Source: Acuticoccus sediminis (GTDB taxonomy: Bacteria > Pseudomonadota > Alphaproteobacteria > Rhizobiales > Amorphaceae). From it: a stretch of 64,000 bases of DNA. Positions 7,712 to 61,028 of this stretch are shown here, one piece after another. The stretch covers positions 124,001 to 188,000 of the forward strand of contig NZ_QHHQ01000006.1 in assembly GCF_003258595.1 (NCBI RefSeq). The letters run 5' to 3'. The number at the start of each line of letters is the position of its first letter. Within the stretch, counting starts at the first letter, position 1. The notes below the pieces were generated by a model. That model searched no databases. It saw only the letters and a program-made list of their open reading frames with translations, and was not told where the DNA came from. The translations under genes and the position numbers were made by a program.

Positions 7712-8246
7712 CGCTCAAGCCCCGTAATGGAGAAAATCGGAACCAGTCCACAGAGCGTATTCGGGGGCCTCTTCGCGGCTTTGAATCCGCCGCGCTTCGG
7801 CGCAGGACCGTACAGTCCCGCACCGTTGGGGTCGAAACGCCCCATGTTGAGCCTCAAAAACGTCGACGCACCAAATTTGCCGGCCAGAAATATATGAAGA
7901 AACGTCCATTTTACTAACAATTTGTGGCGAAAGTGGTGATGCGGTTCTGGTCGTAGTATGAAATCTATAAGGTTTCCATGTGCAGTCAATTCAGGAAAAG
8001 GTTTAGTTTGCTTTTCAGGGAACCCCTGGTTGGCTGGATTCGGTTGTTTGAAGGTCTGTGCCGAACGAGAAGTTGTCCCGATGGCGCTCAGGAAGGACTC
8101 GACCCGTCGTTGAGCGGTGAACTCTCGGTTGGAGGTTCGGAAAACTAAATTATCCGGTAAATTGACTTATGTTTCTGCGGGGAACACCGTGGCGCCGTGA
8201 TTTGATTGAACGCGATCGTTCTTACTTTCTGATTTCGGAGGAGCGC
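7712..8246. promoter_or_regulatory. AT-richer divergent intergenic region between the giant gene and the polysaccharide genes
   Basis: About 535 bp with no convincing coding frame and markedly lower GC than its surroundings (notably 7870-8170). It must hold the promoter of the giant minus-strand gene and probably that of the divergent sugar transferase gene. I could not assign specific -35/-10 boxes. A small inverted repeat GAAAAG/CTTTTC lies at 7995-8016. Confidence 0.5.
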
Positions 8247-41676: not shown

Positions 41677-42693
41677 ATGGGGAGATTCGCCGCGCGTCAC
41701 CCGATCTGGTCGGCCATCATCGTCCTCGCGGCGGCGGTGCTGATCTGGGCGATCTTCGCGCCCTGGCCGGAGGCGCTGGAGGATGCGATCGGCCGCAAGA
41801 AGATCTTCCTCAACGCGCTCTTCAACGGCATCACGCTGGGGGCGCTCTATTTCCTCGTCGCCTCGGGCTTCACGCTGATCTTCGGGCTGATGAAGAACGT
41901 GAATCTCGCGCACGGCTCGCTCTACATGCTCGGCGGCTACCTCGGCTACGAGACCGCGGCGGCGACCGGCTGGTGGCTCCTCTCCTTCGTCGTCGCCTTC
42001 GTGGTGGTGGGGCTGATCGGCGTCCTGCTGCAGGTCCTGGTCTTCCGCCGGATGGAGGGGGAGGACCTCAAGCAGACGCTGGTGACGATCGGCATCTCCA
42101 TCGTCATCGCCGACCTGATGATGTGGATCTGGGGCGGCGACTTCTACCAGATCCTGACGCCGGCGTGGCTCTCCGGTCCGATCGACCTGCCGCTGATCAC
42201 CGGGGTGAGCCGGCGCACGGGCGAGTACATCTACCTGACCTACCCGGTGGTCCGGCTCGTCATCCTGCTCGCGGCCATCGCCATCGGGGTCGGCATGTGG
42301 CTGGCGCTGAACCGGACGCGGATCGGCATGCTGGTGCGTGCCGGCGTCGACGACCGCGACATGCTCTCGGCGACGGGCGTGCGCATCCAGCGCGTCTTCG
42401 TCCTGGTGTTCGCCTTTGGCGCGGGACTGGCGGGGATCGCCGGCGTCATCGGCGGGACCTTCCAGTCGGTGGCGCCGGGTGAGGACACGCGCTTCCTGCT
42501 CGCCTCGCTGGTGGTCGTCATCGTCGGCGGCATGGGCTCGATCCCCGGCGCGGCCCTTGGGGCGTTGCTGATCGGCCTGGCGGAGCAGTTCGGCTCGGTC
42601 TACGCGCCGACCTACGCGGTGGTGCTGACCTTCCTCATCATGGTGCTGGTTCTCGCCTTCCGGCCGCAGGGCCTCGTCGCGGTGCGGCGCTGA
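41677..42693 (+). CDS. livH: Branched-chain amino acid-type ABC permease, LivH family
   Basis: 338 aa, eight to nine TM helices. Seen: NALFNGITLGALYFLVASGFTLIFGLMKNVNLAHGSLYMLGGY, the LivH hallmark, and RAGVDDRDMLSATGVRIQRVFVLVFAFGAGLAGIAG, the cytoplasmic EAA-like loop. First gene of a livH-livM-livG-livF order; stop overlaps the livM ATG by one base (TGATG). No substrate-binding protein gene lies nearby, so the ligand cannot be named; the family carries amino acids, amides, urea and aromatic compounds. Confidence 0.92.
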   Translation: MGRFAARHPIWSAIIVLAAAVLIWAIFAPWPEALEDAIGRKKIFLNALFNGITLGALYFLVASGFTLIFGLMKNVNLAHGSLYMLGGYLGYETAAATGWWLLSFVVAFVVVGLIGVLLQVLVFRRMEGEDLKQTLVTIGISIVIADLMMWIWGGDFYQILTPAWLSGPIDLPLITGVSRRTGEYIYLTYPVVRLVILLAAIAIGVGMWLALNRTRIGMLVRAGVDDRDMLSATGVRIQRVFVLVFAFGAGLAGIAGVIGGTFQSVAPGEDTRFLLASLVVVIVGGMGSIPGAALGALLIGLAEQFGSVYAPTYAVVLTFLIMVLVLAFRPQGLVAVRR

Positions 42694-43766
42694 TGGCGAT
42701 CCTCGACGCCCCCACCGACGCCGCGACCGACTCCGGGTCGCGTGCCGAGCGCCGCTGGTGGCAGCTCTCGGGCATTCCGCCGGCGTACTGGATCGTCGGG
42801 CTGATCCTTCTCTTCATGCCGGTGGTCGCCTCGGGCTTCGTGCTGTCGCAGCTCCTCGCGTGGTCATTCATCCTGGGCATGATCGCGCTGTCGCTGATGT
42901 TCCTCGCCGGCTACGGCAACATGGTCAGCCTGGTGCAGATGACGGTGGCGGGCGTCGCGGCCTACATGGTGGCGATCTTCGGCACCTCCGCCGTGGACAC
43001 GATCTCGCTCGGCTGGCCGTGGTGGGTCGCCGCGCCGGTGGCGATCCTCGTGGCGGTGCTCTTCGGCACGCTCTCCGGCGCTCTGGCGGTGCGCACGGAG
43101 GGGATCTACACGATCATGATCACCCTCGCGATCGCCGCCGCGATGTTCTACCTGGTGCGGCAGAACTACAGCCTCTTCAACGGCTTCTCCGGTCTCAACC
43201 AGGTGAGCGCGCCGGTCTTCTGGGGCGTCAACTGGCGCGCGGCGGTGCCGTTCTACTACCTCTGCCTGGTCTGCGCGGCGCTGTCCTACCTCGCGGTGAT
43301 CTACGTGAAGCGCTCTCCGTTCGGGCTGGCGCTGCAGGGTGTGCGCGACAATCCGCGCCGCATGGCGGCGCTGGGCTTCAACGTCACCGCCCACCGGATC
43401 GCCGCGTACGCGTTCGCGAGCCTCATCGCCGGTGTCGCGGGCGTGCTCCTCGTGTGGCTCAACGGGCAGGTCTCGCCGGGGACGATCGCGGTGGGGCCGG
43501 CGATCGACATCCTGATCATCGCCGTCGTCGGCGGCCTCGCGCATCCGATCGGCCCGTTCCTGGGCGCGCTCCTCTACGTGTTCCTGCGGACCTTCGCGCT
43601 CGACGTGCTGGTCTCCGTCGGGCTCGCGGGCGAGCGGTTCCAGCTCCTCATCGGGCTCGGTTTCCTGGTCGTGGTGTTCTTCTCTTCCGACGGGCTCCTC
43701 GGCATCTGGCGGCGCCTGCGCGAACGCTCGCGCCGCGACCCGCTGACGGGAGAGACCGATGGCTGA
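42693..43766 (+). CDS. livM: Branched-chain amino acid-type ABC permease, LivM family
   Basis: 357 aa. Seen: MIALSLMFLAGYGNMVSLVQMTVAGVAAYMVAI, GTLSGALAVRTEGIYTIMITLAIAAAMFYLV, and the EAA-type GLALQGVRDNPRRMAALGFNVTAHRIAAYAFAS. Pairs with the LivH protein in the inner membrane. Overlaps livH by 1 nt and livG by 8 nt. Confidence 0.92.
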   Translation: MAILDAPTDAATDSGSRAERRWWQLSGIPPAYWIVGLILLFMPVVASGFVLSQLLAWSFILGMIALSLMFLAGYGNMVSLVQMTVAGVAAYMVAIFGTSAVDTISLGWPWWVAAPVAILVAVLFGTLSGALAVRTEGIYTIMITLAIAAAMFYLVRQNYSLFNGFSGLNQVSAPVFWGVNWRAAVPFYYLCLVCAALSYLAVIYVKRSPFGLALQGVRDNPRRMAALGFNVTAHRIAAYAFASLIAGVAGVLLVWLNGQVSPGTIAVGPAIDILIIAVVGGLAHPIGPFLGALLYVFLRTFALDVLVSVGLAGERFQLLIGLGFLVVVFFSSDGLLGIWRRLRERSRRDPLTGETDG

Positions 43767-44550
43767 GACCGTTGCCTCGCGCCTGTCGACCACCGGAACC
43801 GCGAACGCGCTGGAGCTGAGGGGCGTCTCCCGGCTCTTCGGCGCGCTGGCCGCGCTGACCGACATCACGATGACGGTCCGTCCCGGCGAGCGGCGGGCGG
43901 TGCTCGGCTCCAACGGCGCGGGCAAGACGACGCTCTTCAACTGCATCACCGGCGACTTCGGCCCCTCGGCCGGCACGATCCGCCTGTTCGGCGAGGACGT
44001 GACGGCGTTTCCGCCCTACGAACGGATCCGCCGTGGTCTGCGCCGCACCTACCAGATCTCGCTGCTCTTCACCGGCCTCTCGGTGATCGACAACGTGTAC
44101 CTCGCGTGCCGCGGCGTCTCGCGCGGGCGCTTCTCGTTGATGCGTCCGCGCCGGGGCGACCCTCTGCTCGCCTCCGCGCGCGACCTCGTCGACGCGGTGC
44201 ACCTCACCCATGTTCGCGACACGGCGGTCGCCAACCTCGCCTACGGCCAGCAGCGGCAGCTCGAGATCGCTCTGGCGCTCGCCGGCGCGCCGCGCTTCAT
44301 CCTCTTCGACGAGCCGGCGGCCGGCCTCTCGCCGACCGAGCGGCGCGAGCTGGTGGAGATCCTGACGGGGCTGCCGGAGCACATCGGCTACATGATCATC
44401 GAGCACGACATGGACGTCGCGCTGCGCGTCGCCGACCGGGTGACGATGATGCACAACGGGCGCATCTTCAAGGAGGGCCTGCCGCACGAGATCGAGGACG
44501 ATCCGGAGGTGCAGGAGCTCTACCTCGGAGGCGCCCATGGCGGGCACTGA
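43759..44550 (+). CDS. livG: Branched-chain amino acid-type ABC ATPase, LivG family
   Basis: 263 aa. Walker [13 protein letters not shown], LivG-type insert [26 protein letters not shown], a degenerate ABC signature ([15 protein letters not shown] in place of LSGGQ), Walker [14 protein letters not shown], and the H-loop [19 protein letters not shown]. Energises uptake with the fused LivF protein encoded next. Confidence 0.93.
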
Positions 44551-44615
44551 GGCCATCGCGGTCCGGCGCCGGTCATGCGCGCCCCCCCTCGGCCGGGGCG
44601 CGGGGAGGGGCTCTC

Positions 44616-46766
44616 ATGGCGCGTGACGCCGCCGGTCCGCCGATCCTCGAGGTCAAGGGGCTCAACGTCTACTACGGGGCCTCGCACGCGCTGCAGGGCG
44701 TGGACCTGACGCTGCAGTCGGGCGTCCTCTCGGTGGTCGGGCGCAACGGCATGGGCAAGACCACGCTGTGCAAGGCCATCATGGGAATCGTGCCGTCCTC
44801 GGGCTCCATCCGCCTCGGCGGCGAGGAGATCCGTGGCCGCAGCTCCACCGAGATCGCGCGGATGGGCGTCGGCTACGTCCCGCAGGGCCGGCGGCTGTGG
44901 CGCTCGCTGACGGTCGACGAGCACCTGAAGCTGATGGCGCGCGGCAACGGCTCGTGGTCGGTGGAGCGCATCTACGCGACGTTCCCGCGCCTCGCCGAGC
45001 GCAAGAACAACGGCGGCGGCCAGCTCTCGGGCGGCGAGAGCCAGATGCTGGCGATCAGCCGGGCGCTGCTCCTCAACCCGCGCCTTCTGGTGATGGACGA
45101 GCCGACGGAGGGGCTGGCTCCGGTCATCGTCGCCCAGGTCGAGGACATGCTCGTCCGTCTCGCTGAGGAGGGCGTCCACGTTCTCGTCATCGAGCAGAAC
45201 ATCGGCGTCGCGTGCGAGGTGGCGCCGAACGTCGCGATCATGGTCAACGGCCGGGTGGACCGGCTGCTCGACGCGGGTCAGCTCGCCGCCGACCGCGACC
45301 TGCAGCAGCGCCTCCTCGGCGTCGGCCGCCATGCGCACGACGACACGCCCCGGCCCGCTCCCGAGGCCGCCGCGCCCGAAGGCGGGCACGCCGCGTCGAC
45401 CGTCGCCAAGGTCTACCTCTCCAACCCTGTCGCGCCGACGCGCTGGTCGAGGCCGGTGCCGGTGCGCCTCATCGAGCAGGCCGCCCGCACCGTCTCCATG
45501 ACACAGGGGCGCTCCACCGTGGAGGCGGAGCTGCGCCCGCTCGCGGGACCGGGCGAGGAGGTCGTCATCGTCGCCGGCACGCTCGACACCAAGGGCGAGG
45601 AGCTGCGCTACATCCGCGACATCATCCGCGCGCGCGGCCACGCGGTGCGGCTCGCCGACCTCTCCACGTCGGGCGCGCACTCGGGCGCGGAGATCCCCGC
45701 GCACCAGATCGCCGCCTTTCATCCGCGCGGCGCGTCGGGCGTTTTCGTCTCCGATCGCGGCGAGGCGGTGGCCGGGATGACCCTCGCGTTCGAGCGCTGG
45801 ATCGCCCGCCAGTCGGGGATCTCCGGCATCGTCTCGGCCGGCGGGTCCGGCGGCACGGCGATGGTCGCCCCGGCGATGCGGCGCCTGCCGGTGGGCGTCC
45901 CGAAGCTCATCGTCTCGACGATGGCCTCGGGCAGCATCGCCCAGTATGTCGGCGCCTCCGACATCACGATGATGCACTCCGTGGCCGACATCGCCGGGCT
46001 CAACGCGATCACCCGGCGCGTCCTCGCCAACGCCGCCAACGGCATCGCCGGCATGGTGGAGAGCCGCGCGGCGATCCCGGCGGGCCTGCCGCCGGTCGGC
46101 ATCACCATGTTCGGCGTCACCACCCCTTGCGTCCGCCAGGTGACCGAGGCGCTGAAGCGCGACCACGAGTGCCTCGTCTTCCACGCCACGGGGACGGGCG
46201 GGGCGGCGATGGAGGCGCTGGTCGACCAGGGCCTCGTGAAGGGCGTCATCGACGTCACCACAACCGAGATCGCCGACATGATGATGGGCGGCATCCTCGC
46301 CGCGACCGAGGACCGGTTCGGCGCCGTCATCCGCCGCAAGGTTCCGTGGGTGGGCTCGCTCGGCGCGCTCGACATGGTGAACTTCGGCGCGCCGGACACG
46401 GTGCCGCCGCGCTACGCCGGCCGCCGCCTCCACCGCCACAACCCGCAGATCACCCTGATGCGCACGACGGCGGAGGAGAACGCCGCGATGGGCCGCTGGA
46501 TCGGCGAGCGCATCAACCGGATGGACGTCGCGCGGCTTCTCATCCCCGAGGGAGGGCTCTCGGCGCTCGACGCGCCGGGCGAGGCCTTCCACGACCCGGC
46601 CGCCGACCGCGCCCTGTTCGAGGCGCTGGAGGCGACGGTCCGCCAGACCGCGGCGCGGACCATCGAGCGTCTGCCGCACCACATCAACGACCCGGCCTTC
46701 GCCGCGGCGCTGGTGGCGGCGTTCCGGACGCTCTCCGGCGGGGAGCGCAAGCGGCGGGCGTCCTGA
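44616..46766 (+). CDS. LivF-type ABC ATPase fused to a Tm-1-like (UPF0261) domain
   Basis: 716 aa from ATG 44616 (GGGGAGGGG upstream). Residues 1-240: LivF ATPase with [45 protein letters not shown] and VLVIEQNI. Residues 240-300: Pro/Ala linker. Residues about 310-705: Tm-1-like ATP-binding domain, opening with [21 protein letters not shown] and containing [33 protein letters not shown] and [14 protein letters not shown]. Stand-alone Tm-1-like proteins are about 400 aa, so the whole domain is present, and both parts are in one uninterrupted frame. Tm-1 relatives bind ATP; their bacterial reaction is unknown. The fusion couples it to a transporter (inference: processing of the imported compound). 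Confidence 0.88.
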
Positions 46767-47507: not shown

Positions 47508-47564
47508 GCACGGCCCGCTCGCCCGTATTGACGACCGCGCGGCGGATCGACAAAGGTTTTGTCT

Positions 47565-48317: not shown

Positions 48318-48327
48318 CCCCGGCCCC

Positions 48328-48348
48328 GGCGCCGGCCCGCCCGGCGCC
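48328..48348. terminator. Hairpin after the sulfotransferase gene
   Basis: Perfect 8-bp stem GGCGCCGG (48328-48335) and CCGGCGCC (48341-48348), 5-nt loop, 10 nt after the stop. No T-tract. Confidence 0.4.
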
Positions 48349-48521
48349 CTGCCGTCCCGCGGCACGCCCGGTCCGGCCGCCGCGCGAATACCGGGCGCCC
48401 GCCGCGCCGCGGCACTGATCAGGGCGTCTGGTCTTCCGCCCAAAATCAGACCCACTGCAACGCACGGTTCCCAAAACCGCGTCACCATGTCCGGCAAAAT
48501 AAACCGGGAGTGACGCGCATC

Positions 48522-51500
48522 ATGACAGGGGAACTCATCGGCGAGCTCATCTTGTGGCTCGTCCTGGCCGTCATCGTCATCTTCGTCGTCTACTGGGTGA
48601 TGAACTGGCTCTACCGCCGGTCCACCAAGGAACACGCGTACGTGCGGACCGGCTTCCTCGGTGAAAAGGTCGTCATCGACGGCGGCGCCTTCGTCTGGCC
48701 CATCATCCACGACATCACGCCCGTCGCGATGCACACCCTGCCGCTCGACGTCACGCGTGAGCGCGAGCACGCCCTCATCACCAAGGACCGGATGCGCGTG
48801 GACGTCGAGGCGGAGTTCTACGTCCGCGTCCGTCCGGAGCGCGCCGCGGTCTCCCGCGCGGCCTCCACGCTGGGCCGGCGCACGCTGGAGCCGGAGCGGC
48901 TGCAGCCGCTGCTGGCGGGCAAGTTCGAGTCCGCGCTGCGCATCGCCGCCGCCGAGATGGCGATGGGCGACATCCACGAGCAGCGCGGCACCTACGTGAA
49001 GCGCGTCAAGGAGCTCGCGCAGGAATCGCTGGAGCAGAACGGCCTGGAGCTGGAATCGGTCGCCATCAAGGACATCGACCAGACCGCGCTCGAGTACTTC
49101 AACCCCTCCAACCGCTTCGACGCCGAGGGTCTCACCGCCCTGATCCGCGAGATCGAGGAGCGGCGCACGCTGCGCAACGAGATCGAGCAGGCGTCCATGA
49201 CGCGGATCCGCACGCGCAACCTGGAGGCGGAGAAGGACGCCCTCGCGATCGAGCGCGACTCCGAGCAGGCGCGCCTCGAGCAGGAGCGCGAGATCGAGTT
49301 CCGCCGAGCCCAGCAGCGCGCCGAGATCGCCCGCGAGCGGGCCGAGCGGCAGACCGACGCCGAGCGCGCCGAAATCACCGCGCGCGAGACGATCGAGCTG
49401 GCGCGCATCGCCAACGACCAGTCCATCGCCGAGGTGCGGATCCAGTCCGAAAGGGAGATCCGTCAGCGCGAGATCGACCGCCAGCGCGCCCTCGACAGCG
49501 CCGAGATCTCCGCCCGGCGCGACACCGAGACCGCCCGCATCGAGCAGGAGCGGGCGGTGTCGGAATCGCGGATCATCAACGAGCAGGACATCGAGGCGCG
49601 CGAGATCGCCCGCCGCCGCACCATCGACGAGACCGAGATCGCCGCGCGCGAGGCCACCGATCGCGCCCGCATCGAGCAGGAGCGCGCCGTCGCCGAGGCC
49701 CGGATCGCCAGCGACGAGGCGACCCGTGCCCGCGAGATCGCCCGCCAGAAGCTCCTGGAAGCGGCCGAGATCGCCGCCCGGGAGGAGACCGAGAAGGCCC
49801 GCATCCTCCAGGATCAGGCGATCGTCGACGCGCGCATCGCCAGCGAGGAGGGGATTCGCCGCCGCGAGATCGCCCGCACCCGCGCCGTGGACGAGGCCGA
49901 GATCGAGGCGCGCGAGACCGTCGAGAAGATGCGCATCGCCGAGGCCGCCGCGACGTCCGAGGAGCGCATCGTCACCGACCGCCGCGTGCGGGAGCTGGAG
50001 ATCGCCCGCCAAGAAGCGGTGGAGGCGGCCGAGATCGCCGCCCGGCAGGCCGTCGAGGCGGCGCAGATCGCCCGGGACAAGGCGATCGCCGCCGACCGCA
50101 TCGCCTACGAGCAGGACGTGCGCGAGCGTGAGATCGCCCGGAGCCGCGCCGTCGACCAGGCGGACATCTCCGCCCGCAGGACCGTCGAGGAGGCGCGCAT
50201 CACCACCGACGCCCGGATCGACGAGGCCCGCATCTCCGCCCGCGAGGAGGTCGCCATCAACCAGACCGCGTCGGAGGAGCGGACCGAGACCGCCCGCATC
50301 TCGCTCACCAAGATCCTGCGCGCCGAGCGGATCGCGGCCGAGCAGGACGCCTCCGAGCGCGAGATCAGCAGCGGCGCGGCCCTCGAAGCGGCCGACATCC
50401 GCCGCCGCGAGTCGACCGAGCGCCAGCGCATCGAGATGGAACTCGGCCTCGAGATGGAGCGGATCGCCGCCAGCCAGGAGCGCGAGGTCTCCGACATCGA
50501 CCGCAAGCGCATGGTGGAAGAGGCCGAGGAGGCCCGGGTCATCGAACTCGCGACCAAGCGGACCGAACGGGCCGCGGCCGAAGCCCGCGTCAAGCGCGCC
50601 GAGATCGAGGCGGGTCGTGACGTGGAGAAGACCGGGATCGAGCGGGAGAAGGTCATCGACGCCGCCAGGCTGGAGCGGCGCCGCGCGACCGAGCAGCTCG
50701 AGATCGCCCGCGTCCAGGCGCTGCGTGAGGCCGAGATCGCCTCGACGGAGGACATCGAGCGCGCCCGCATCGCCTCCGAGCGGGGTCTCGACGAGGCCCG
50801 CATCGGCCACGAGACGGAGCGGCGCCGCCGCGAGGTCGCCCGCGAGCGCGACGTCGAGATGGCGCAGATGGAGAAGGCCATCACCCTCTACGCCAAGTCG
50901 CTGGAGGAGAGCGCGGCGCGCATCGCCGCCGACAACGAGCTCGCCCGCGCCGCGGAGGCCGAGGAGCGCGTCAAGACGGTGCGCCAGACCGAGGAGGCGC
51001 AGCGCCGCAAGACCATCGACGTGCTGATGGCCGAGAAGGCCGCGCAGGAGGCGCGCCACGCCGCCGACGCGGAGAAGGTGCGCACCGCCGTGGAGGCCGA
51101 GGCGCAGAAGCTCATCAACGAGGCCGAGAACGTCCTCTCCGACGGCGCCCGCGCGTCCGTCTTCCGCCGCCGCCTGCTGGAGCGGATCGAGGGCATCGTC
51201 GCCGCGTCCGTCAAGCCGATGGAGAAGATCTCCGACATCCGCATCGTCCAGCTCGACGGGGCGAACGGATACGGCCATGGCGGCGAGGGCGGCCGGCAGA
51301 ATGCCACCGACGAGGTGATCAACTCGGCGCTGCGCTACCGCATGCAGGCGCCGCTGGTGGATTCGCTGCTCGCCGACATCGGCATCGAGGGCGGAACGCT
51401 CGCCAAGATGCCGGGCCTCATCCGCGAGGCAAGCGACATGCAGCGCATCGCCCGCGAGTCCGGCGGCGGTGGCGGCTCGGGCAGCTCCGGCGGCGAGAAG

Positions 51501-51536
51501 GGCGACAGGGGCTCCAAAGAGCCGAAGGGAGCGTGA
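48522..51536 (+). CDS. Very long flotillin-like SPFH protein with expanded coiled-coil repeats
   Basis: 1004 aa from ATG 48522; GTG 48510 is the frame limit. One N-terminal TM helix (residues 8-30, LILWLVLAVIVIFVVYWVM), then an SPFH/band-7 domain to about 240: KEHAYVRTGFLGEKVVIDGGAFVWPIIHDI, LDVTREREHALITKDRMRVDVEAEFYVRV and NGLELESVAIKDIDQT. From about 245 to 860 it is uninterrupted charged helix built on 11-residue units, including six in-register 44-residue repeats (283-546). The C-terminus (ALRYRMQAPLVDSLLADIG) and a Gly-rich tail follow. Typical flotillins are about 450-650 aa. Family knowledge: flotillins oligomerise at the inner face of ordered membrane domains. Directly followed by SRPBCC/methyltransferase genes, suggesting a scaffold for those or for the downstream hydroxylase (inference). 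Confidence 0.9.
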   Translation: MTGELIGELILWLVLAVIVIFVVYWVMNWLYRRSTKEHAYVRTGFLGEKVVIDGGAFVWPIIHDITPVAMHTLPLDVTREREHALITKDRMRVDVEAEFYVRVRPERAAVSRAASTLGRRTLEPERLQPLLAGKFESALRIAAAEMAMGDIHEQRGTYVKRVKELAQESLEQNGLELESVAIKDIDQTALEYFNPSNRFDAEGLTALIREIEERRTLRNEIEQASMTRIRTRNLEAEKDALAIERDSEQARLEQEREIEFRRAQQRAEIARERAERQTDAERAEITARETIELARIANDQSIAEVRIQSEREIRQREIDRQRALDSAEISARRDTETARIEQERAVSESRIINEQDIEAREIARRRTIDETEIAAREATDRARIEQERAVAEARIASDEATRAREIARQKLLEAAEIAAREETEKARILQDQAIVDARIASEEGIRRREIARTRAVDEAEIEARETVEKMRIAEAAATSEERIVTDRRVRELEIARQEAVEAAEIAARQAVEAAQIARDKAIAADRIAYEQDVREREIARSRAVDQADISARRTVEEARITTDARIDEARISAREEVAINQTASEERTETARISLTKILRAERIAAEQDASEREISSGAALEAADIRRRESTERQRIEMELGLEMERIAASQEREVSDIDRKRMVEEAEEARVIELATKRTERAAAEARVKRAEIEAGRDVEKTGIEREKVIDAARLERRRATEQLEIARVQALREAEIASTEDIERARIASERGLDEARIGHETERRRREVARERDVEMAQMEKAITLYAKSLEESAARIAADNELARAAEAEERVKTVRQTEEAQRRKTIDVLMAEKAAQEARHAADAEKVRTAVEAEAQKLINEAENVLSDGARASVFRRRLLERIEGIVAASVKPMEKISDIRIVQLDGANGYGHGGEGGRQNATDEVINSALRYRMQAPLVDSLLADIGIEGGTLAKMPGLIREASDMQRIARESGGGGGSGSSGGEKGDRGSKEPKGA
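49368..50159 (+). repeat. Six tandem 132-bp (44-residue) hendecad repeats in the flotillin-like gene
   Basis: Units begin at 49368, 49500, 49632, 49764, 49896 and 50028 with exact 132-bp period and no gaps; a seventh, decaying unit starts at 50160. Each encodes four 11-residue blocks of the form (A/T)EIxARxxxEx, ARIxxExAxxE, xRIxxExxxRx, REIARxRxxDE. Isoleucine at position 3 of each block defines the 11-residue period expected for a right-handed coiled coil. Confidence 0.88.
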
Positions 51537-51537
51537 C

Positions 51538-51975
51538 GTGCCGCGCGTCTACGTCTCCAGCGTGATCAATGCGCCCGCGCCCGAGGTCTGGGCACGGGTG
51601 CGGGACTTCAACGCGCTGCCGCGCTGGCACCCGCGCATCCGCGAGAGCCGCATCGAGGACGGCCTGCCGTCCGACAAGATCGGCTGCGTGCGTGACTTCC
51701 GCCTGCAGAACGGCGACCGGCTGCGCGAGAAGCTCCTCGGCCTTTCCGACTACGACATGTTCTGCACCTACGCGATCCTCGAGAGCCCGATGCCGCTGAC
51801 GGACTATGTCGCCACGCTCCGGATCACCCCGATTACCGACGGCGACCGAACTTTCGCCGAATGGTCGGCGGATTTTGAGTGCGCCGAAGACGACGTGGAC
51901 GACCTCGTGAGCGGTATCGGGACCAACGTGTTCCAAGGGGGCTTCGACGCTCTGAAGCGGCACTTCACGCGCTGA
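51538..51975 (+). CDS. SRPBCC-family protein (polyketide cyclase/START-like), copy 1
   Basis: 145 aa from GTG 51538, one base after the flotillin-like stop, with GAAGGGAG upstream. Seen: RVYVSSVINAPAPEVWARVRDFNALPRWHP, KIGCVRDFRL.NGD.LREKLL, then LRITPITDGDRTFAEWSADFE. This is the helix-grip fold of small hydrophobic-ligand-binding proteins. Clear paralogue of the gene at 52834 (shared WA.VRDFN...RWHP, DK.G.VR.F, LREQLL/LREKLL, TDGD.TF). Ligand unknown. Confidence 0.85.
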   Translation: MPRVYVSSVINAPAPEVWARVRDFNALPRWHPRIRESRIEDGLPSDKIGCVRDFRLQNGDRLREKLLGLSDYDMFCTYAILESPMPLTDYVATLRITPITDGDRTFAEWSADFECAEDDVDDLVSGIGTNVFQGGFDALKRHFTR

Positions 51976-52833: not shown

Positions 52834-53283
52834 ATGGTGAAGATCGTCACCTCGACCGTCATCGACGCGCCGATCGAGGCGGTGTGGGCGGTCGTGCGCG
52901 ACTTCAACGGGCACGACCGCTGGCACCCGGCGGTCGCCGACTCGGTCATGGAGCGCGGCGCGCCGACGGACAAGGTCGGCGGCGTGCGGCGCTTCCACCT
53001 CGCCGACGGGGCGGAACTGCGCGAGCAACTCCTGGCGCTCGACGATGCCGAGATGACGATGAGCTACTGCCTGCTCGACACGCCGGTGCCGCTCTTCAAC
53101 TACGTCGCCCACTGCCGGCTGCTGCCGGTCACCGACGGCGACATGACCTTCTGGCACTGGGAGTCGCGCTTCGACACGCCCCGGGGCCGCGAGAGCGAAC
53201 TGAAAACCATGGTCACCAACGACATCTACTACGCCGGCATGAACGCGGTGCGCGCGTTCGTCGGCGAGCGGGGGGGCGCATGA
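52834..53283 (+). CDS. SRPBCC-family protein, copy 2
   Basis: 149 aa. KIVTSTVIDAPIEAVWAVVRDFNGHDRWHP, TDKVGGVRRFHLADGAELREQLL and LLPVTDGDMTFWHWESRFDTP match copy 1 throughout. Same fold and probably related ligand. Duplicated SRPBCC genes around a methyltransferase next to a molybdenum hydroxylase suggest chaperone-like or substrate-carrier roles as with CoxG (inference). Confidence 0.85.
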   Translation: MVKIVTSTVIDAPIEAVWAVVRDFNGHDRWHPAVADSVMERGAPTDKVGGVRRFHLADGAELREQLLALDDAEMTMSYCLLDTPVPLFNYVAHCRLLPVTDGDMTFWHWESRFDTPRGRESELKTMVTNDIYYAGMNAVRAFVGERGGA

Positions 53284-53344: not shown

Positions 53345-54133
53345 ATGCCGGTGAGCGTCGCCACCTACGCCTCGCTCGCCGAGGCGGGCCGGGCCTTCGC
53401 GGACCGCCGCACCGCCCGCGTCTACTCGGGCGGCACCATCGTCATGCGCGCGGTCAACGAGGGGGACACCTCGTTCGACACGCTCATCCGCATCACCGAC
53501 CGCGCCTACACGGAGATTGCCGTCGGCAGCGAGGTGCGGCTGGGCGGCGGCGTCACCATGGGCGCGATCGCCGCCCACCGCGACCTCGCCTTCCTGGCGC
53601 CCGTCGCACGGGTCATCGGCGGGCCGCAGGTCCGGTCCGTGGCGACGGTGGCGGGCAACCTCTTCGCCCCGGCGCCCTACGGCGACCTCGCGGGCGCGCT
53701 CATGGCCCTCGGCGCGCAGGCCGAGCTGGCCGGCGGTGGCCGCGTCGCGGTGGACGAGCTGGTGCGGGGCGGGGGGAGCCGCGCCCTCGTCGCTGCGGTC
53801 AACTTCCCGCGCCCGCAGGGGGAGCTGCGGTTCGCCAAGGTCTCCCGCGTCAGGCCGAAGGGCGTCGGGCTGATGTCGATCTCGGCGCTGCTGCCGCGCG
53901 GCGGCGGGGGCGGGGACGTGCGCATCGTCTTCAACGGGATGGGGCCGCACCCGGTCCGCGCCACGGCTGCCGAGCGGGCACTCTCGGGCCGGGCGGGCGA
54001 CCGGCAGGCGATCGAGCGGGCGGCGGCCAGCGCGGCGGAGGGCCTGTCGCCGGTCGACGACGCCCTCGCCTCCGCCTGGTACCGGCGCGAGGTCGCGGGC
54101 GTTCACCTCAAGCGTCTCCTGGAGGCCCGGTAA
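53345..54133 (+). CDS. Molybdenum hydroxylase FAD subunit (CoxM-like)
   Basis: 262 aa. VAO/PCMH-type FAD domain: YSGGTIVMRAVN, then VRLGGGVTMGAIAAH and VIGGPQVRSVATVAGNLFAPAPYGDL (the second FAD motif), with the CO_deh_flav C-terminal domain after about 165. It takes electrons from the 2Fe-2S subunit. Somewhat short for CoxM (usually about 285 aa). Its stop overlaps the small-subunit start (TAATG). Confidence 0.9.
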   Translation: MPVSVATYASLAEAGRAFADRRTARVYSGGTIVMRAVNEGDTSFDTLIRITDRAYTEIAVGSEVRLGGGVTMGAIAAHRDLAFLAPVARVIGGPQVRSVATVAGNLFAPAPYGDLAGALMALGAQAELAGGGRVAVDELVRGGGSRALVAAVNFPRPQGELRFAKVSRVRPKGVGLMSISALLPRGGGGGDVRIVFNGMGPHPVRATAAERALSGRAGDRQAIERAAASAAEGLSPVDDALASAWYRREVAGVHLKRLLEAR

Positions 54134-54621
54134 TGGCCAAGACACCCATCCGCTTCACGCACAACGGCGACGAGCGCGCGGTCTTCGTCGACGACGGGCA
54201 GAACCTCCTCGACATGCTGCGCCGCACCGCCGGCGACCTCACGCCCAAGTACGGCTGCGGGCAGGGCACCTGCGGCGCCTGCACCGTCCTCGTCGACGGC
54301 GAGCCGCAGCTCTCGTGCCTGACGCTCGCCGAGACGGTGGACGGGCGCGCGATCGACACCGTCGCCGGTCTCGGTAACGGCCGCCTCTCGCCGCTGCAGA
54401 AGGCCTTCATGGACAACTTCGCCGCCCAGTGCGGCTACTGCACCGACGGCATGCTGATGTCCGCCACCGCGCTCCTGAAGAAGAACCCGCGGCCGACGCG
54501 CGAGGAGGTGGTGGAGGCGATCTCCGGCAACCTCTGCCGCTGCACCGGCTACGAGGCGATCATCAACGCCGTCCTCGCCGCCGCCGGCGGCGCGGGCGCG
54601 GCGTCCGCGGGACGGAGGTAG
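54133..54621 (+). CDS. Molybdenum hydroxylase 2Fe-2S subunit (CoxS-like)
   Basis: 162 aa. N-terminal plant-type cluster: KYGCGQGTCGACTVLVDGE with the later LSC (four cysteines). C-terminal all-alpha cluster: AQCGYCTDGMLMSATALL and GNLCRCTGYEAIINAVL. Both 2Fe-2S sites are complete. Overlaps the FAD-subunit gene by 1 nt and precedes the large-subunit gene by 5 nt. Confidence 0.94.
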   Translation: MAKTPIRFTHNGDERAVFVDDGQNLLDMLRRTAGDLTPKYGCGQGTCGACTVLVDGEPQLSCLTLAETVDGRAIDTVAGLGNGRLSPLQKAFMDNFAAQCGYCTDGMLMSATALLKKNPRPTREEVVEAISGNLCRCTGYEAIINAVLAAAGGAGAASAGRR

Positions 54622-54626
54622 CGACG

Positions 54627-56342
54627 ATGCCCATTGAGTTTCGCAAGGAATATTTCGCGGACGAGCGTGACGACAATCTCAACGAGATCGGCAAGCCGAC
54701 GCAGCGGCAGGACATGCTGGGGCACGTCACCGGCCGCTCGCCCTTCTACGACGACCACCTGTTCGACGGGCTGCTCCACATCCGCTGCGTGCGCTCGCCG
54801 CACCACCATGCCCGCGTGCGCCGGATCGACACCTCCGAGGCCGAGCGCGTTCCCGGGGTGAAGCGGGTGATCCTCGCCCGCGACGTGCCGCACAACCTCA
54901 ACACGCTGCTCTCGCTGATGGACTTCGGCCTCGACGACGAGCCGATGATCGCCGCCGAGGGCGAGGAGGTGCGCTACAAGGGCGAACCGGTCGCGGCCAT
55001 CGTCGCCGACACCGAGCGGATCGCCCGGGAGGCCGTCGCGAGGGTGCGCGTCGACTACGAGCTGCTGCCCCACGTCCTCGACGTGGAGGAGGCGATCAAG
55101 CCGGGCGCGGTGGCGGTGAACCCCGCGTACCCGGCCAACAAGTTCGTCTACCACGGCAAGTACGATCACCAGAAGCTGCGCTACGGCGACGTCGACGCCG
55201 CCTTTCGCCAGTGCGACCGGGTGATCGAGGGCCGCTACCAGATGAGCCCCATCGAGCAGGCGCCCATCGAGACCTGCGGCGCCATCGCCGCGCCCGAAAC
55301 CAACGACCGCTGGGTCTGCTACACCTCGACCCAGGCGCTGTTCTTCTCCCTCGGCACCGCCGCCAAGCTCCTCGACCTCTCCTCCGCGCGGCTGCACCTC
55401 ATCGGCGGCACGGTGGGCGGCGGCTTCGGCGGCAAGGTCGATTCCATCCACGAGCCGCTCGCGATCCTCGGCGCGGTCCTCACCGGGCGGCCCTGCAAGG
55501 CGATGTTCGACCGCGAGGAGGAGATGCAGGTCGGCGCCCCCCGCGGCGCCGAGCGCTGGTACGTCACCGACGGCGTGATGAACGACGGGCGCATCATGGC
55601 CCGCAAGTTCGTCGGCTACTTCGACGCCGGCGCCTACACGCGCCTCTCCTCGTACGCGATCATCAAGTCGGTCGGCCATCTTCCGGGGCCGTACACGATC
55701 CCGAACGTCTACGCCGACGTCTACTGCGTCTTCACCAACCGCACGCCGGCGACGGCGATGCGCGGCTTCGGCGTCACCGGCGTCGACTTCGCGATCGAGA
55801 GCCACATGGACGTCGTCGCCCACGAGCTGGGGCTCGACCCGATCGAGATGCGCATCCTCAACGCCTACCGCGACGGGGACATGAAAGCCCACCGGCGCCT
55901 TGCCAAGAACACGGCCCTCGTCGAGTGTTGCCATGTCGCTGCGGAGAAGGCGGGTTGGCCGCTGTCGGCGGAGGCGCGAGCGGCCTCGTCGCTACACGGC
56001 GGCGGGGGACAGCGGGGCGAGCTGCCGGCCTTCACGGCGCAGGACGAGAACGGCCGGGTTTCCGGCTACGCGTCCGGGTCGTACGCGCAGGGCGAGCGCC
56101 CCCGCGAGCCGGTCGGGACCGGGCGGGACGCCGTGCCGCCGCGTCCGTCGCACCAGCCTCCGCGCGCACCTCAGCCGGCACGGGCGGACCTGCGCCGGAC
56201 GCCAGAGCCGGCGGGGTCGGCCGGTCCGCCTCCTTCTGCGCCGCGACCGGAGCGCGCACCCGAGCCGGCCGCCAACCCCGACGGGGCGGCGCCGCGCCGC
56301 GGGCCACGCTTCGCCTCGATTTCCGGCCTCCGGCGGAGGTAA
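54627..56342 (+). CDS. Molybdenum hydroxylase large subunit, N-terminal part (split CoxL/XdhA-like)
   Basis: 571 aa from ATG 54627 (GGAGG upstream). Residues 1-430 hold the first part of the large subunit: GKPTQRQDMLGHVTGRSPFYDDH, VRYKGEPVAAIVAD, QAPIETCGAIAA, GGTVGGGFGGKVDS (molybdopterin loop) and the active-site loop ATAMRGFGVTGVDFAIE. Form I CO dehydrogenases have AYRCSFR and form II AYRGAGR, so this is neither. After AEKAGWPL the protein turns into a 130-residue Pro/Arg-rich tail ending SISGLRRR instead of the second half of the fold, which is encoded at 57490-58530. A bona fide split subunit is likelier than a broken gene because both parts start and stop cleanly. Confidence 0.87.
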   Translation: MPIEFRKEYFADERDDNLNEIGKPTQRQDMLGHVTGRSPFYDDHLFDGLLHIRCVRSPHHHARVRRIDTSEAERVPGVKRVILARDVPHNLNTLLSLMDFGLDDEPMIAAEGEEVRYKGEPVAAIVADTERIAREAVARVRVDYELLPHVLDVEEAIKPGAVAVNPAYPANKFVYHGKYDHQKLRYGDVDAAFRQCDRVIEGRYQMSPIEQAPIETCGAIAAPETNDRWVCYTSTQALFFSLGTAAKLLDLSSARLHLIGGTVGGGFGGKVDSIHEPLAILGAVLTGRPCKAMFDREEEMQVGAPRGAERWYVTDGVMNDGRIMARKFVGYFDAGAYTRLSSYAIIKSVGHLPGPYTIPNVYADVYCVFTNRTPATAMRGFGVTGVDFAIESHMDVVAHELGLDPIEMRILNAYRDGDMKAHRRLAKNTALVECCHVAAEKAGWPLSAEARAASSLHGGGGQRGELPAFTAQDENGRVSGYASGSYAQGERPREPVGTGRDAVPPRPSHQPPRAPQPARADLRRTPEPAGSAGPPPSAPRPERAPEPAANPDGAAPRRGPRFASISGLRRR

Positions 56343-57489: not shown

Positions 57490-58530
57490 GTGGCGATCCA
57501 CAAGGGCCGGGGTTTTGCCTGCATCAACTACCCCATCGGCATGAACCTCGGGGGCGACCCGTCCCAGGCGCTCGTCCACTCCAATCCGGACGGGAAGTTC
57601 ATGGTGGCGCTGTCCTCCATCGACCTCGGCCAGGGGATGAAGTCCGTCACCCGCCAGATCGCCGCCGAGACGCTGGGGGTGCCGGTGGAGGACGTCTACG
57701 TCGACACCGCCGACAGCGACACCGGCCCACACTGCATGGGCTCCTTCGCCTCGCGCGGGACGCACCGCGTCGGCAACGCCGTGATCCAGGCGGCCAGGGA
57801 GGCGAGGGCGGTCATGCTCGAGGCGGCCGCCGAGGAACTTGAGGTCAACGCCTCCGACCTCGTGACCGACGGTCGCGGCAACATCCACGTCAACGGCGCG
57901 CCGTCCCGCTCCATCACCACCGGAGAGGCGTGCGAGGCGGCGCAGTTCAAGCACGGCAAGACCGTGTCGGGGCGGGGGATCTTCCTCATCCCGCTGTCGG
58001 AGGTGAGCCCCGAGACGGGGGAGATGACGCCGGTCTCCTGCTTCGCCCACGCCGCGGTCATCCTCGACCTCGAGGTCGACGACGAGACCGGCGAGGTGCG
58101 CGTCCTGGAGGTGAACTCGGCCTACGAGCTGGGCCGGGCGCTGAACCCGCGCCTCGTCGAACAGCAGCTCATCGGCGGTGCGTGGATGGGCCTCTCCCAC
58201 GCCCTCTACGAGACGACCGAGCCCTACTACCCGAACCGCGACCACGGCCCGACCGACTTCAACCACTACCTGATGCCCGGGCCCGGCGACATCGCCCCCC
58301 ACAACGTCGCCGTCCTGGAGCGGCCGGCGCCGGACGGTCCCTACGGCGGCAAGGGGCCCGGCGAGATGTGCGCCAACCCGCTGCTCCCCGCCGCCGCCAA
58401 CGCCGTCTTCGACGCGGTCGGCGTGCGCATCACCGACCTCCCGATCACCCCGGAAAAGATCCTGCGCGGCATCCGCGACAACGGCGGTACCCGGCCGGGA
58501 CGTCACGCCAGGGCCGGGAGCCGTCAGTGA
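57490..58530 (+). CDS. Molybdenum hydroxylase large subunit, C-terminal part (split)
   Basis: 346 aa from GTG 57490 (GGGGAGGG upstream). Begins at a natural domain boundary (HKGRGFACINYPIGMNLGGD), then SSIDLGQGMKSVTRQIAAETLGV (DxGQG cofactor motif), FASRGTHRVGNAV, LNPRLVEQQLIGGAWMGLSHALYE and GPYGGKGPGEMCANPLLPAAANAV with the catalytic glutamate of the GxGE motif. It therefore supplies the active-site base that the N-terminal part lacks; both are needed for one active site. 147 bp after that part's neighbour EamA gene stop to start is 136 bp. Confidence 0.88.
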   Translation: MAIHKGRGFACINYPIGMNLGGDPSQALVHSNPDGKFMVALSSIDLGQGMKSVTRQIAAETLGVPVEDVYVDTADSDTGPHCMGSFASRGTHRVGNAVIQAAREARAVMLEAAAEELEVNASDLVTDGRGNIHVNGAPSRSITTGEACEAAQFKHGKTVSGRGIFLIPLSEVSPETGEMTPVSCFAHAAVILDLEVDDETGEVRVLEVNSAYELGRALNPRLVEQQLIGGAWMGLSHALYETTEPYYPNRDHGPTDFNHYLMPGPGDIAPHNVAVLERPAPDGPYGGKGPGEMCANPLLPAAANAVFDAVGVRITDLPITPEKILRGIRDNGGTRPGRHARAGSRQ

Positions 58531-58940: not shown

Positions 58941-59822
58941 ATGCCCGTCCGCCCCTCCATCGTCGGGATCGACTCGCCAGAGCGGCTCGCCATCGCCCTG
59001 CGGGACGCGCAGTACCTGGCCGGCGACGATCTCGCGACCGCAGCCTACCTCGCGCTCGCGCTCGGCAAGCCGCTGCTGCTGGAGGGCGCGCCCGGCGTCG
59101 GCAAGACCGAGGCGGCGAAGGCCATCGCCTCGATCCTCGGGCGCGAGCTCCTGCGCCTCCAGTGCTACGAGGGGATCGATTCCGCCGCCGCCCTCTACGA
59201 ATGGAACTATCCGCGGCAGATGCTGGCGATCCGCCAGGCGGGCGAGGCCTACGTCAACATCTACGCCGACGACTACCTCATCGCCCGCCCCATGCTGGAA
59301 GCGCTGCGCCACCCCCGCGATACGGTGCTCCTGATCGACGAGATCGACCGCGCGGACCACGAGTTCGAAGCCTTTCTGCTCGAATTCCTGTCCGACTTCT
59401 CGATCTCGATCCCCGAGCGCGGCACCGTGCGCGCGGAGGAGCATCCCGTCGTGATCCTCACCTCCAACCGCACCCGCGAGCTGCACGAGGCGCTGCGCCG
59501 CCGCTGCATCTACCACTGGATCGACTACCCCGACGCCCGCCGGGAGGCCGACATCGTCATGATGCGCGCCTCCACCGTCGCCCGGGACACGGCCGACAAG
59601 GTCGTCGCCGCCGTCACGGCCCTGCGCGCCGAGCCGCTCGCCAAGGCCCCCGGCATCGCCGAGACGGTCGAGTGGGCCGAGGCCGCGACGCTCCTGCACG
59701 CGCAGGGCAACCCGTGGCCGACCGCCTTCCGCCGCGCCATCGGCGTCGCCCTCAAGGACCAGGACGACCTCACCTTCCTGGACGGGCGACTGGAGGACAT
59801 GATCGAGGAGGCCGTGGCGTGA
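58941..59822 (+). CDS. MoxR/CoxD-like AAA+ ATPase
   Basis: 293 aa. Walker A LLLEGAPGVGKTEAAKAIA, Walker B TVLLIDEIDRADHEFEAFLLEFLSD, sensor-1 VILTSNRTRELHEALRRRCIYHWIDYP. The CoxD branch helps mature the sulfurated copper/molybdenum site of CO dehydrogenase; in related hydroxylase clusters it is thought to act as a chaperone with the VWA partner. Followed after 99 bp by the CoxE-like gene. Confidence 0.92.
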   Translation: MPVRPSIVGIDSPERLAIALRDAQYLAGDDLATAAYLALALGKPLLLEGAPGVGKTEAAKAIASILGRELLRLQCYEGIDSAAALYEWNYPRQMLAIRQAGEAYVNIYADDYLIARPMLEALRHPRDTVLLIDEIDRADHEFEAFLLEFLSDFSISIPERGTVRAEEHPVVILTSNRTRELHEALRRRCIYHWIDYPDARREADIVMMRASTVARDTADKVVAAVTALRAEPLAKAPGIAETVEWAEAATLLHAQGNPWPTAFRRAIGVALKDQDDLTFLDGRLEDMIEEAVA

Positions 59823-59921: not shown

Positions 59922-61028
59922 ATGGCGGCGATCGAGCCATTGCCCCGGGCCGCGCGGCCCCTCGTCGGCTTCGCGACGCGGCTGCGCCGTGCCGGCTTCG
60001 CGGTTGCGCCCGAGCAGACGCAGAGCTTCGTCGCCGCCGTGGGCCTCCTCGGCCCCCGCGCGATGGCCGACATCCACGCCGCGGCGCTCGCCACGCTCGC
60101 CCCGCCGCCCGACCGCCGCGCCGAGTTCGACGCGCTCTACCGCGCGCACTTTCTCGGACACACCGTCGCCGCCCCCGTCACCAGCGACGAGGAGCCGGAT
60201 GTCACCGAGCCGGAGGAGGGCGCGGTCGAGGCCATCGAACCCGAGGAGCTGACCGAGAGCGGCGCCGAGGCCACCGCCACGGAGGCTCTCGCCGGCCGAG
60301 CCTTCGCCGACCTCTCCGAGGCCGACGCCCTCCGCCATTTCCGCCGCGCGGCCCCGGGCCGTCTGCCGCGCCGCACGTCGCGCCGCCTCGTCAGCCGGCG
60401 CCGCGGCGACCGGCCGGACATGCGCCGGGCCCTCAGGGACGCCGTCCGGCGCGACGGCGAGGTGGTCCGACTGCCGCAGCTGAAGCGGCGTACGCGGCAA
60501 CGGCGCATCCTTCTGCTGATCGACGTGTCCGGCTCGATGGCCGCACAGACCGACGCGGCCCTCCGATTCGCCCACACCCTCGCCCGAAGCGCCGAGAGGG
60601 TGGAGATCTTCACCCTCGGCACGCGGCTCACGCGCATCACCCGCGCCATTGGGCGCCGCCATCAGGGCGCCGCCCTCGCCGCCGCGTCCGCCGCCGTGTC
60701 CGACTGGGACGGCGGCACCCGGCTCGGCGACGCGCTGGCCGCCTTTCTCGCCGTCCCCCGCTACGCCGGGTTCGCCCGCGGCGCGGCCGTGGTCGTCCTG
60801 TCCGACGGCCTGGAGCGCGGCGACCCGGCCGTGCTGGTCGGCGCGATGGAACGCCTGTCGCGCCTCTCCTGGGCGGTCCTGTGGCTCTCACCGCTGGCCG
60901 CCGATCCGAACTACGAGCCGCGCACCGCGGCCATGGCCGCGATCCGCCCGATGCTGGCACGTCTGGGGGACGGCTCGTCCCCTGGCAGGATCGCCGCCGA
61001 AATCCTGGGACTAGCGAGGGCTGCATGA
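59922..61028 (+). CDS. CoxE-like VWA-domain protein
   Basis: 368 aa. N-terminal CoxE region (RPLVGFATRLRRAGFAVAPEQTQ), an acidic linker (residues 90-130), RRRGDRPDMRRALRDAVRRDGEVV, then a von Willebrand A domain with the MIDAS RILLLIDVSGSMAAQTDAALRFA (DxSxS), GGTRLGDALAAFL and VVVLSDGLERGDP. Partner of the MoxR ATPase in CO-dehydrogenase-type maturation. Its stop overlaps the amidohydrolase ATG (ATGA). Confidence 0.92.
   Translation: MAAIEPLPRAARPLVGFATRLRRAGFAVAPEQTQSFVAAVGLLGPRAMADIHAAALATLAPPPDRRAEFDALYRAHFLGHTVAAPVTSDEEPDVTEPEEGAVEAIEPEELTESGAEATATEALAGRAFADLSEADALRHFRRAAPGRLPRRTSRRLVSRRRGDRPDMRRALRDAVRRDGEVVRLPQLKRRTRQRRILLLIDVSGSMAAQTDAALRFAHTLARSAERVEIFTLGTRLTRITRAIGRRHQGAALAAASAAVSDWDGGTRLGDALAAFLAVPRYAGFARGAAVVVLSDGLERGDPAVLVGAMERLSRLSWAVLWLSPLAADPNYEPRTAAMAAIRPMLARLGDGSSPGRIAAEILGLARAA

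Follow-up and report, generated by a model that had tools for sequence, protein, structure and literature searches.

Giant SPFH2 proteins of 800 to 1000 amino acids were described in 2009 by Hinderhofer et al., in whose account SPFH2 genes are usually accompanied by an NfeD homologue and some stand without one (PMC2636767). In the human flotillin cage, 44 helices, 186 residues long and free of heptads, stand side by side and form the wall as a right-handed barrel (PMC11260169). Here we analyze a flotillin-family gene that lies at positions 48522 to 51536 of a 64,000-nucleotide stretch ("the window") of Acuticoccus sediminis contig NZ_QHHQ01000006.1 (positions 124,001 to 188,000, forward strand). 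The coil of its 1004-residue product is built of hendecads (11-residue blocks), the coils of its relatives have quantised lengths, and its long relatives are associated with genes for SRPBCC proteins.

A hendecad coil of quantised length

Domain matches bear out the flotillin-like assignment made in the original prediction, an earlier reading of the window by a model. The protein exceeds the Pfam cut-offs for Band_7 (60 bits; cut-off, 23.6) and Flot (113.9 bits; cut-off, 27), and the SPFH part alone, used as a sequence query, finds human flotillin among solved structures. On the NCBIfam FloT equivalog NF058507 it scores 38.4 bits, below the curated cut-off of 700. A helix of about 650 residues joins the SPFH and Flot domains, and the predicted doubling in length holds against a second, ordinary flotillin of the same genome, an open frame of 563 codons on another contig. 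By the positive-inside rule, a guide to membrane topology, the chain that follows the N-terminal hydrophobic helix is predicted to be cytoplasmic. On the opposite strand, an open frame of 1070 amino acids (48066-51278, minus strand) overlaps the flotillin gene and probably arises as a side effect of the GC-rich codons of the repeats.

Does the coil follow an 11-residue or a 7-residue order? Hydrophobic periodicity reached a power of 39.1 at 2.75 residues and 18.7 at 5.5 (largest of 1000 shuffles: 5.6 and 9.1, respectively); the heptad signal in the same analysis was only 0.1 at 3.5 residues and 0.5 at 7. Across residues 282 to 666, isoleucine occupies position 4 of 34 of the 35 consecutive blocks, as had been predicted for what was then numbered position 3. 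Six residues farther on, position 10 holds V, I, L or T in 33 of the 35. With 11 residues to every 3 helical turns, the two positions form hydrophobic stripes 131 degrees apart. The face between them (positions 3, 7 and 11) is mostly charged, with both signs present, and the opposite side is alanine-rich. We conclude that the coil is hendecad and that periodicity rules out heptad order, in agreement with the original prediction. Among 90 representatives, clustered at 70% identity, power exceeded 5 at 2.75 residues in 81 and at 3.5 residues in none. Sorted by coil size, it did so at 2.75 residues in 43 of 43 coils of at least 550 residues, 36 of 37 of 330 to 549 residues and 2 of 10 shorter ones.

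The coil also repeats every 44 residues. Tandem Repeats Finder reported a period of 132 bp (3.4 copies, 72% matches), and identity autocorrelation peaked at 44, 88 and 132 residues, with a value of 0.31 at both 44 and 88. The six 132-bp units that had been predicted are present. They are not the exact copies that had been claimed, since their DNA is 55 to 75% identical and their protein 39 to 61%. Nor do they abut the SPFH domain: the SPFH match ends at residue 199, the hendecad phase begins at about 231, and the first in-register unit begins at about 282. The pattern had been said to decay on its way to about residue 860. Unit identity does fall, to 16 to 39% in the next three units after residue 545, but the hendecad phase runs unbroken from 231 to 684 and, after a 3-residue step, continues in a second phase to 782. 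The charge correlation of the window coil is most positive at lag 44. Between lags 12 and 79, a lag of 44 gave the charge maximum for 42 of the 43 coils of at least 550 residues, for 14 of 37 of 330 to 549 residues and for none of 10 shorter ones.

How old is the array? The orthologues of genomes G002 and G004 have the same coil length and keep the same units. Corresponding units across genomes have a DNA identity of 0.85 (G004) and 0.83 (G002), against 0.55 and 0.54 for non-corresponding units; the ungapped row for residues 861 to 945 was left out of this comparison, as register is probably lost in a glycine-rich stretch after 905. The ratio of nonsynonymous to synonymous substitution (dN/dS) is 0.21 (G004) and 0.27 (G002) over the coil and 0.07 and 0.10 over the SPFH domain. 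Because corresponding units are far more alike across genomes than different units are, the array is older than the species compared; it is also under purifying selection. The same contrast rules out the recent tandem amplification at the DNA level that the original prediction had proposed.

Coil length was taken as the anchor distance from the proline of the YFNP motif (residue 195, SPFH end) to the proline of KPMEK (residue 899, Flot domain), both outside the coil. The sample combined the best 120 of 7928 homologues (8000 scored) with genome loci. Both anchors were found in 278 proteins, of which 29 were dropped (a non-proline at either anchor, or falling out alongside), leaving 249 proteins with 220 distinct coils. 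Their anchor distances span 261 to 957 residues, and 216 of the 220 fall into two classes modulo 11: 85 in class 0 and 131 in class 8. The four elsewhere are P0003, P0017, P0031 and L140. Counted as distinct lengths, of which there are 58, 25 are in class 0, 29 in class 8 and 4 in other classes; with lengths treated as independent, a generous bound on the chance of finding 54 of 58 in two classes is 1e-33. The 29 filtered-out proteins hold 24 distinct coils, every one in class 8. Hence, the proline filter is not the source of the grid. An earlier unfiltered count had placed 139 of 142 proteins in classes 0 and 8. The same two classes take in 126 of 127 loci of a later set with wider flanks, which overlaps the length sample, contains six loci that duplicate another by contig, and includes Escherichia coli YqiK (anchor distance, 272). 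The C-terminal tail, from residue 899 to the stop, follows no length rule and spreads over all 11 classes.

We considered P0003 as a flotillin-SRPBCC fusion (a Rosetta stone) and rejected it: its tail and its off-grid length point to frameshifts, and it was retained in the length count. A comparison also took in the additional ends of P0001, P0007 and P0008, which were not used; P0001 and P0007 lack the Flot anchor and stand outside the length count.

On a FastTree tree of the SPFH part (220 sequences), there were at least 80 changes of coil length and 12 changes of class. Phase decoding across the representatives is noisy, and other shifts occur. Even so, a phase advance of 3 appears in each of the ten commonest decoded patterns of the 38 class-0 representatives (35 in all). 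Among the 50 class-8 representatives, 16 lack any phase change and a few have a 3. Judged from these patterns, classes 0 and 8 appear to differ by a 3-residue phase step.

Gene partners of the long flotillins

Of the loci scored, eighty were chosen by similarity to the N terminus of the window protein (the best 80 of 573 confirmed) and fourteen as long frames. Nine of the eleven neighbor query pieces were used; the ABC2+Tm1 and CoxL pieces began out of frame, and their columns were set aside. Three of the eighty are from Gammaproteobacteria, six are unplaced, and the rest are from Alphaproteobacteria of several orders. The 127 scored loci comprise 104 long and 23 standard flotillins, a selection enriched for long forms in which five long loci repeat a counted contig. 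All association counts are raw and ignore kinship. Where a locus included at least 900 bp of downstream sequence, an SRPBCC gene lies 3' on the same strand in 96 of 98 long-flotillin loci and in none of 23 standard ones. By anchor distance, the counts are 5 of 5 at 330 to 479 and 91 of 93 at 480 or more. The two exceptions are L052, a second long flotillin of G007, and L088, which has an SRPBCC frame that is open far upstream and is hence missed by the distance rule. Where 2.8 kb of downstream sequence was available, a CoxM-like gene 3' accompanies 88 of 91 of the longest group, none of the 5 in the middle group and none of the 23 standard flotillins. For a LivG-like ATPase gene 5', the corresponding counts are 83 of 85, 5 of 5 and 0 of 20.

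A less biased set comprised 61 genomes picked by kinship. Long flotillins occur in 18 of them (G000, G002-G007, G009, G022, G027, G029, G032, G043-G046, G048 and G058); G006 was read from two contig pieces, the G032 frame is cut by a contig end, and G018, with a 112-residue fragment, was counted as not long. SRPBCC proteins of at least 60% identity are present in exactly these 18 genomes. The C-terminal half of a molybdenum (Mo)-hydroxylase large subunit (at least 67%) is also found in 18 of the 61, namely, 16 of the long-flotillin genomes plus G001 and G024, and not in G009 or G058. We conclude that long flotillins are constantly accompanied by SRPBCC and usually by the Mo-hydroxylase. At the G058 locus (L051), a second SRPBCC fused to a zinc-binding alcohol dehydrogenase (6330-7841, minus strand) lies beside a mid-length flotillin.

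In the window, a Pfam scan gave the following order, all on the plus strand: two ABC permeases, an ATPase, a joint ATPase-UPF0261 frame, a PRAI protein and a sulfotransferase, then the flotillin. On its 3' side follow an SRPBCC protein, a methyltransferase, a second SRPBCC protein, the FAD, FeS and large-subunit N-half proteins of a Mo-hydroxylase, an EamA transporter, the large-subunit C half, an AAA ATPase and a VWA CoxE-like protein. Coordinates are collected in the table.

Table. Features of the giant flotillin and its neighborhood (window positions)
Feature	Position	Strand	Evidence
Giant flotillin-family protein, 1004 amino acids	48522..51536	+	Intact open reading frame, ATG 48522 to TGA 51536; Band_7 and Flot matches
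N-terminal hydrophobic helix, residues 4-33, basic residues after; predicted membrane anchor	48531..48620	+	AlphaFold2 helix and sequence
SPFH / Band 7 domain, residues 47-199	48660..49118	+	Pfam PF01145, E 4.1e-16; human flotillin-1 chains 9bq2/9l3g by sequence and fold
Uninterrupted hendecad phase, residues 231-684 (454 residues, ~41 blocks of 11)	49212..50573	+	Phase decoding; positional composition of 282-666
Six recognisable 44-residue (132-bp) units, residues 282-545	49365..50156	+	Unit identity matrix; Tandem Repeats Finder period 132
Second hendecad phase, residues 685-782, after 3-residue phase step	50574..50867	+	Phase decoding
Flot domain, residues 837-955; putative cap / narrow end	51030..51386	+	Pfam PF15975, E 6.7e-33
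Branched-chain-type ABC transporter: permeases 41677, 42693; ATPase 43759	41677..44550	+	PF02653 twice, PF00005
Second ABC ATPase and UPF0261 in one frame	44606..46766, start approximate	+	PF00005, PF06792, PF23189 on frame 44106-46763
SRPBCC protein (PF10604), constant partner of long flotillins	51538..51975	+	GTG start possible one base past flotillin stop
Second SRPBCC protein (PF10604)	52834..53283	+	Pfam
Mo-hydroxylase FAD subunit (CoxM-like)	53345..54133	+	PF00941, PF03450
Mo-hydroxylase [2Fe-2S] subunit (CoxS-like)	54133..54621	+	PF01799, PF00111
Mo-hydroxylase large subunit, N-terminal half	54627..56342	+	PF01315, PF02738
Mo-hydroxylase large subunit, C-terminal half	57490..58530	+	PF20256
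AAA ATPase (CoxD/MadB-like)	58941..59822	+	PF00004, PF07728; NF047784 below cut-off
VWA protein (CoxE-like)	59922..61028	+	PF05762

The single ATPase-UPF0261 frame recurs in L042 (728 amino acids). The PRAI-family and sulfotransferase genes occupy 46830-48317, where L042 has a PF09370 "PEP hydrolase-like" gene; of 115 sources, 3 contain PRAI and only the window contains the sulfotransferase. The large subunit is split in 14 of 14 loci holding both halves (22 sources examined), whereas the frames that carry the other 22 MoCoBD_2 matches of this genome measure 746 to 1209 amino acids. The EamA transporter (56364-57353) sits between the two halves, and a match of more than 40% identity stands there in 4 of the 14 loci (the window, L033, L035 and L039).

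Could the SRPBCC pair be CoxG, whose family profile we take to be Pfam PF06240? The pair matched PF10604, with no CoxG model at E 0.001 and no NCBIfam match, and we rejected that identity. The first SRPBCC also matches PF03364, and among solved structures the neighboring SRPBCC matched uncharacterised or SRPBCC-named chains. Form I Mo-carbon monoxide (CO) dehydrogenase was rejected as well: its large-subunit motif is (A/S)YRCS(F/L)R (PMC13240472), and here neither half contains YRCS, RGFG is present, and the CO dehydrogenase models score far below cut-off. No NfeD-like gene was found among 21 of the neighboring window frames, which were scanned with Pfam; NfeD proteins can show very little similarity (PMC2636767).

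A candidate cage wall and its alternatives

The fold matches of the giant flotillin among solved structures were headed by the human flotillin cage chains, followed by prohibitin, stomatin, HflK/C and erlin and, lower, the vault. In a second look, prohibitin chains tied with the human flotillin chains at the top. These matches depend on the SPFH part together with the first stretch of helix; the full-length sequence, as a query of solved structures, returned two weak coil matches only. AlphaFold2 modeled the window protein (28 sequences) with a mean predicted local distance difference test score (pLDDT) of 63.3, a predicted template modeling score (pTM) of 0.28 and helix over residues 204 to 871. 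For the relative P0025 (685 residues, 42 sequences), the values were 71.0 and 0.29, with helix over 201 to 601.

On balance, we favor the view that the giant flotillin is an extended stave in the wall of an SPFH cage, about 90 nm tall if straight, which stands on the inner membrane and serves an oxidative pathway. We infer cage membership from homology. The N-terminal anchor and SPFH domain would sit against the cytoplasmic membrane on its inner side. From there, the helix of about 650 residues would pack beside identical neighbors into a straight, uncoiled wall, and the Flot domain would close the far end. Adding the 432 residues by which the coil exceeds that of YqiK to the 186-residue human wall puts the stave at about 93 nm if straight; a length above 80 nm, as originally predicted, is thus possible (80 to 100 nm for one straight helix), and scaling puts the longest relative at as much as about 130 nm. 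Eleven residues are three helical turns, so that each added hendecad would raise the far end by about 1.65 nm without turning it, and steps of other sizes would rotate the remaining stave away from both neighbors. Stave length would then change only in whole hendecads, because other steps rotate the two hydrophobic stripes off the neighbors. The grid is explained in this way if staves are straight and locked to two neighbors, and wall height would evolve in 1.65-nm steps.

What might such a cage do? The long form belongs to one cluster, made up of an ABC importer, UPF0261, the SRPBCC pair and usually a split Mo-hydroxylase. CoxG, itself of the SRPBCC fold, reportedly connects the soluble CO dehydrogenase with the membrane and with quinone (PMC4240915, PMC13240472). 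By analogy, the gene arrangement here suggests a CoxG-like task, that of a hydrophobic-ligand carrier between the membrane and a soluble oxidoreductase. The cage would enclose a membrane patch, fed by the importer and bounded by flotillin, and SRPBCC carriers inside or on it could pass a hydrophobic substrate or an electron carrier between membrane and oxidoreductase. A bolder and quite tentative proposal is a vault or microcompartment analogue: a membrane-capped dome of about 90 nm, perhaps of 120 subunits and with its height tuned by hendecads, that would house the SRPBCC-fed split Mo-hydroxylase and the importer as a lipid-linked reaction chamber.

Several observations weigh against the cage-wall stave. 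Superposition of the whole chain on the flotillin chains gave a root mean square deviation of 45 to 51 Å, leaving the direction of the helix unmatched. The helix of the window model is broken at 412-427, 579-589 and 681-709 and that of P0025 at 354-360 and 570-573, all at low pLDDT; both models are of low confidence and leave a single continuous straight helix unproven. A face-to-face charge calculation found no preferred stagger (best, -0.048; shuffle minimum, -0.039 +/- 0.010). In short coils, the hydrophobic 11-residue signal is weak. The subunit-number rule 0.1782 x CC1 + 10.22, proposed from a handful of structures (PMC12624060), yields about 120 subunits when applied to the giant flotillin, an extrapolation far beyond its data. 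On the genetic side, the scored long-flotillin loci share ancestry, gene association differs from physical contact, and L052, the second long flotillin of G007 (distance 580, on grid), lacks the SRPBCC cluster; it may represent a second long flotillin lineage.

Perhaps the grid is instead mutational, with unequal recombination between 33-bp-phased repeats adding or removing multiples of 33 bp, and structure is irrelevant to it. The coil is indeed repetitive in its DNA, with the 132-bp period, and identity peaks at multiples of 11, above all at 44. Recombination of this kind should prefer 44 residues (132 bp), the register of highest similarity. The lengths, however, are not quantised in 44s and fill all four hendecad classes modulo 4 (9, 5, 5 and 6 for the 25 class-0 lengths; 10, 7, 5 and 7 for the 29 class-8 lengths). 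The gaps in 80 pairs of relatives (at least 70%) likewise argue against it: 63 of 98 are exactly 11 residues, as against 5 of exactly 44. Seventy-nine are multiples of 11, and the other 19, often in cancelling pairs, comprise 18 of 1 to 6 residues and one of 159; the pairs are non-independent, and many share one event. Short coils with weak repeats are also on the grid (23 of 23 below 300). The unit of coil length change is thus 11 residues, while 44 is the period of sequence and charge similarity. We regard a mutational grid as unlikely, although these data separate the two causes imperfectly.

We are more doubtful of a narrow, right-handed coiled coil with few strands, or of a helix folded into hairpins, either of which would leave the complex far short of 90 nm. 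Right-handed coiled coils characteristically contain hendecads, the helix is interrupted at low confidence in both models, and the window break at 681-709 falls at the 3-residue phase step. However, a narrow coil needs one main hydrophobic face, whereas this helix carries two stripes at 131 degrees to each other; phase is also kept over 454 residues.

A free rod or filament-forming spacer beneath the membrane, without a closed cage, is less probable again, although the original prediction had leaned this way. The length of about 650 residues, the high charge and the lack of oligomer evidence suit a rod. However, the SPFH and Flot ends are those of a cage-forming family, the two stripes suggest neighbors on two sides, and the top solved-structure matches are human flotillin cage chains, so that a cage-wall stave is likelier. 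Perilipins and synucleins have an 11-residue period, which makes an amphipathic helix on a lipid surface conceivable; we think it very improbable here, where two separate stripes, with a charged face of both signs between them, leave no single lipid-binding face. Finally, an assembly or repeat-expansion artefact in one genome can be dismissed: the length and units recur in G002 and G004, the coil is under purifying selection, and long forms occur in many genomes. Homologues of normal length exist, but long forms account for 104 of the 127 loci of the long-enriched set.

The length grid is a signature, read from sequence alone, of how SPFH walls may pack, and it suggests staves rotationally locked to their neighbors over dozens of hendecads. 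Anchor distances of 261 to 957 offer a natural series of wall lengths that could be used to relate wall length to cage size and subunit number (compare PMC12624060). Gene association likewise puts forward a definite biochemical partner for one set of bacterial flotillins.

Comparison with known systems

Length alone is not new (PMC2636767). Within the searched literature, the quantised length and the SRPBCC association of long flotillins appear to be. That literature, with most subscription papers outside its reach, held no mention of hendecads with SPFH or flotillin, nor of flotillin together with CoxG, or together with both xanthine dehydrogenase and operon. Only through a reference title did flotillin share a paper there with carbon monoxide dehydrogenase, and papers combining flotillin, molybdopterin and gene cluster were, in their accessible text, on other subjects.

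The window cluster resembles the Mo-CO dehydrogenase cluster with CoxG in its CoxM/S/L-like subunits, its AAA and VWA proteins and the SRPBCC-fold proteins nearby (PMC4240915, PMC13240472). It differs in its split large subunit with RGFG and no YRCS, in SRPBCC proteins of the PF10604 family and in the presence of a flotillin. Major vault protein gives a fold match to the giant flotillin over the SPFH-like domain and the helix that follows, and the vault is a thin-walled barrel of many copies (PMC13347060). It is, however, a closed two-shell particle, and the likeness is distant and lower-ranking; the structure match is too distant to be read as shared function.

Closer relatives are found within the flotillin family itself. 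E. coli YqiK lies on the same length grid, but it has 553 amino acids and a coil 432 residues shorter than that of the window protein, adjoins yqiJ and has no adjacent SRPBCC of this kind. The giant SPFH2b proteins are alike in family, in a strongly expanded predicted coiled coil and in size (here 1004 amino acids, with a coil of about 650); the likeness is by size and coil, not by subgroup models, and hendecad order, a length grid and an SRPBCC/Mo-hydroxylase cluster are absent from the accessible text of that account (PMC2636767). The human flotillin-1/2 cage (9bq2, 9l3g) has a 186-residue wall, 44 subunits of two kinds and no transmembrane helix (PMC11260169), whereas the giant flotillin begins with a hydrophobic helix. 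The two are alike in an SPFH domain at the membrane, a side-by-side helical wall without heptads and a C-terminal end at the narrow end (PMC11260169), a likeness that for the giant flotillin's wall and cap is predicted from homology.

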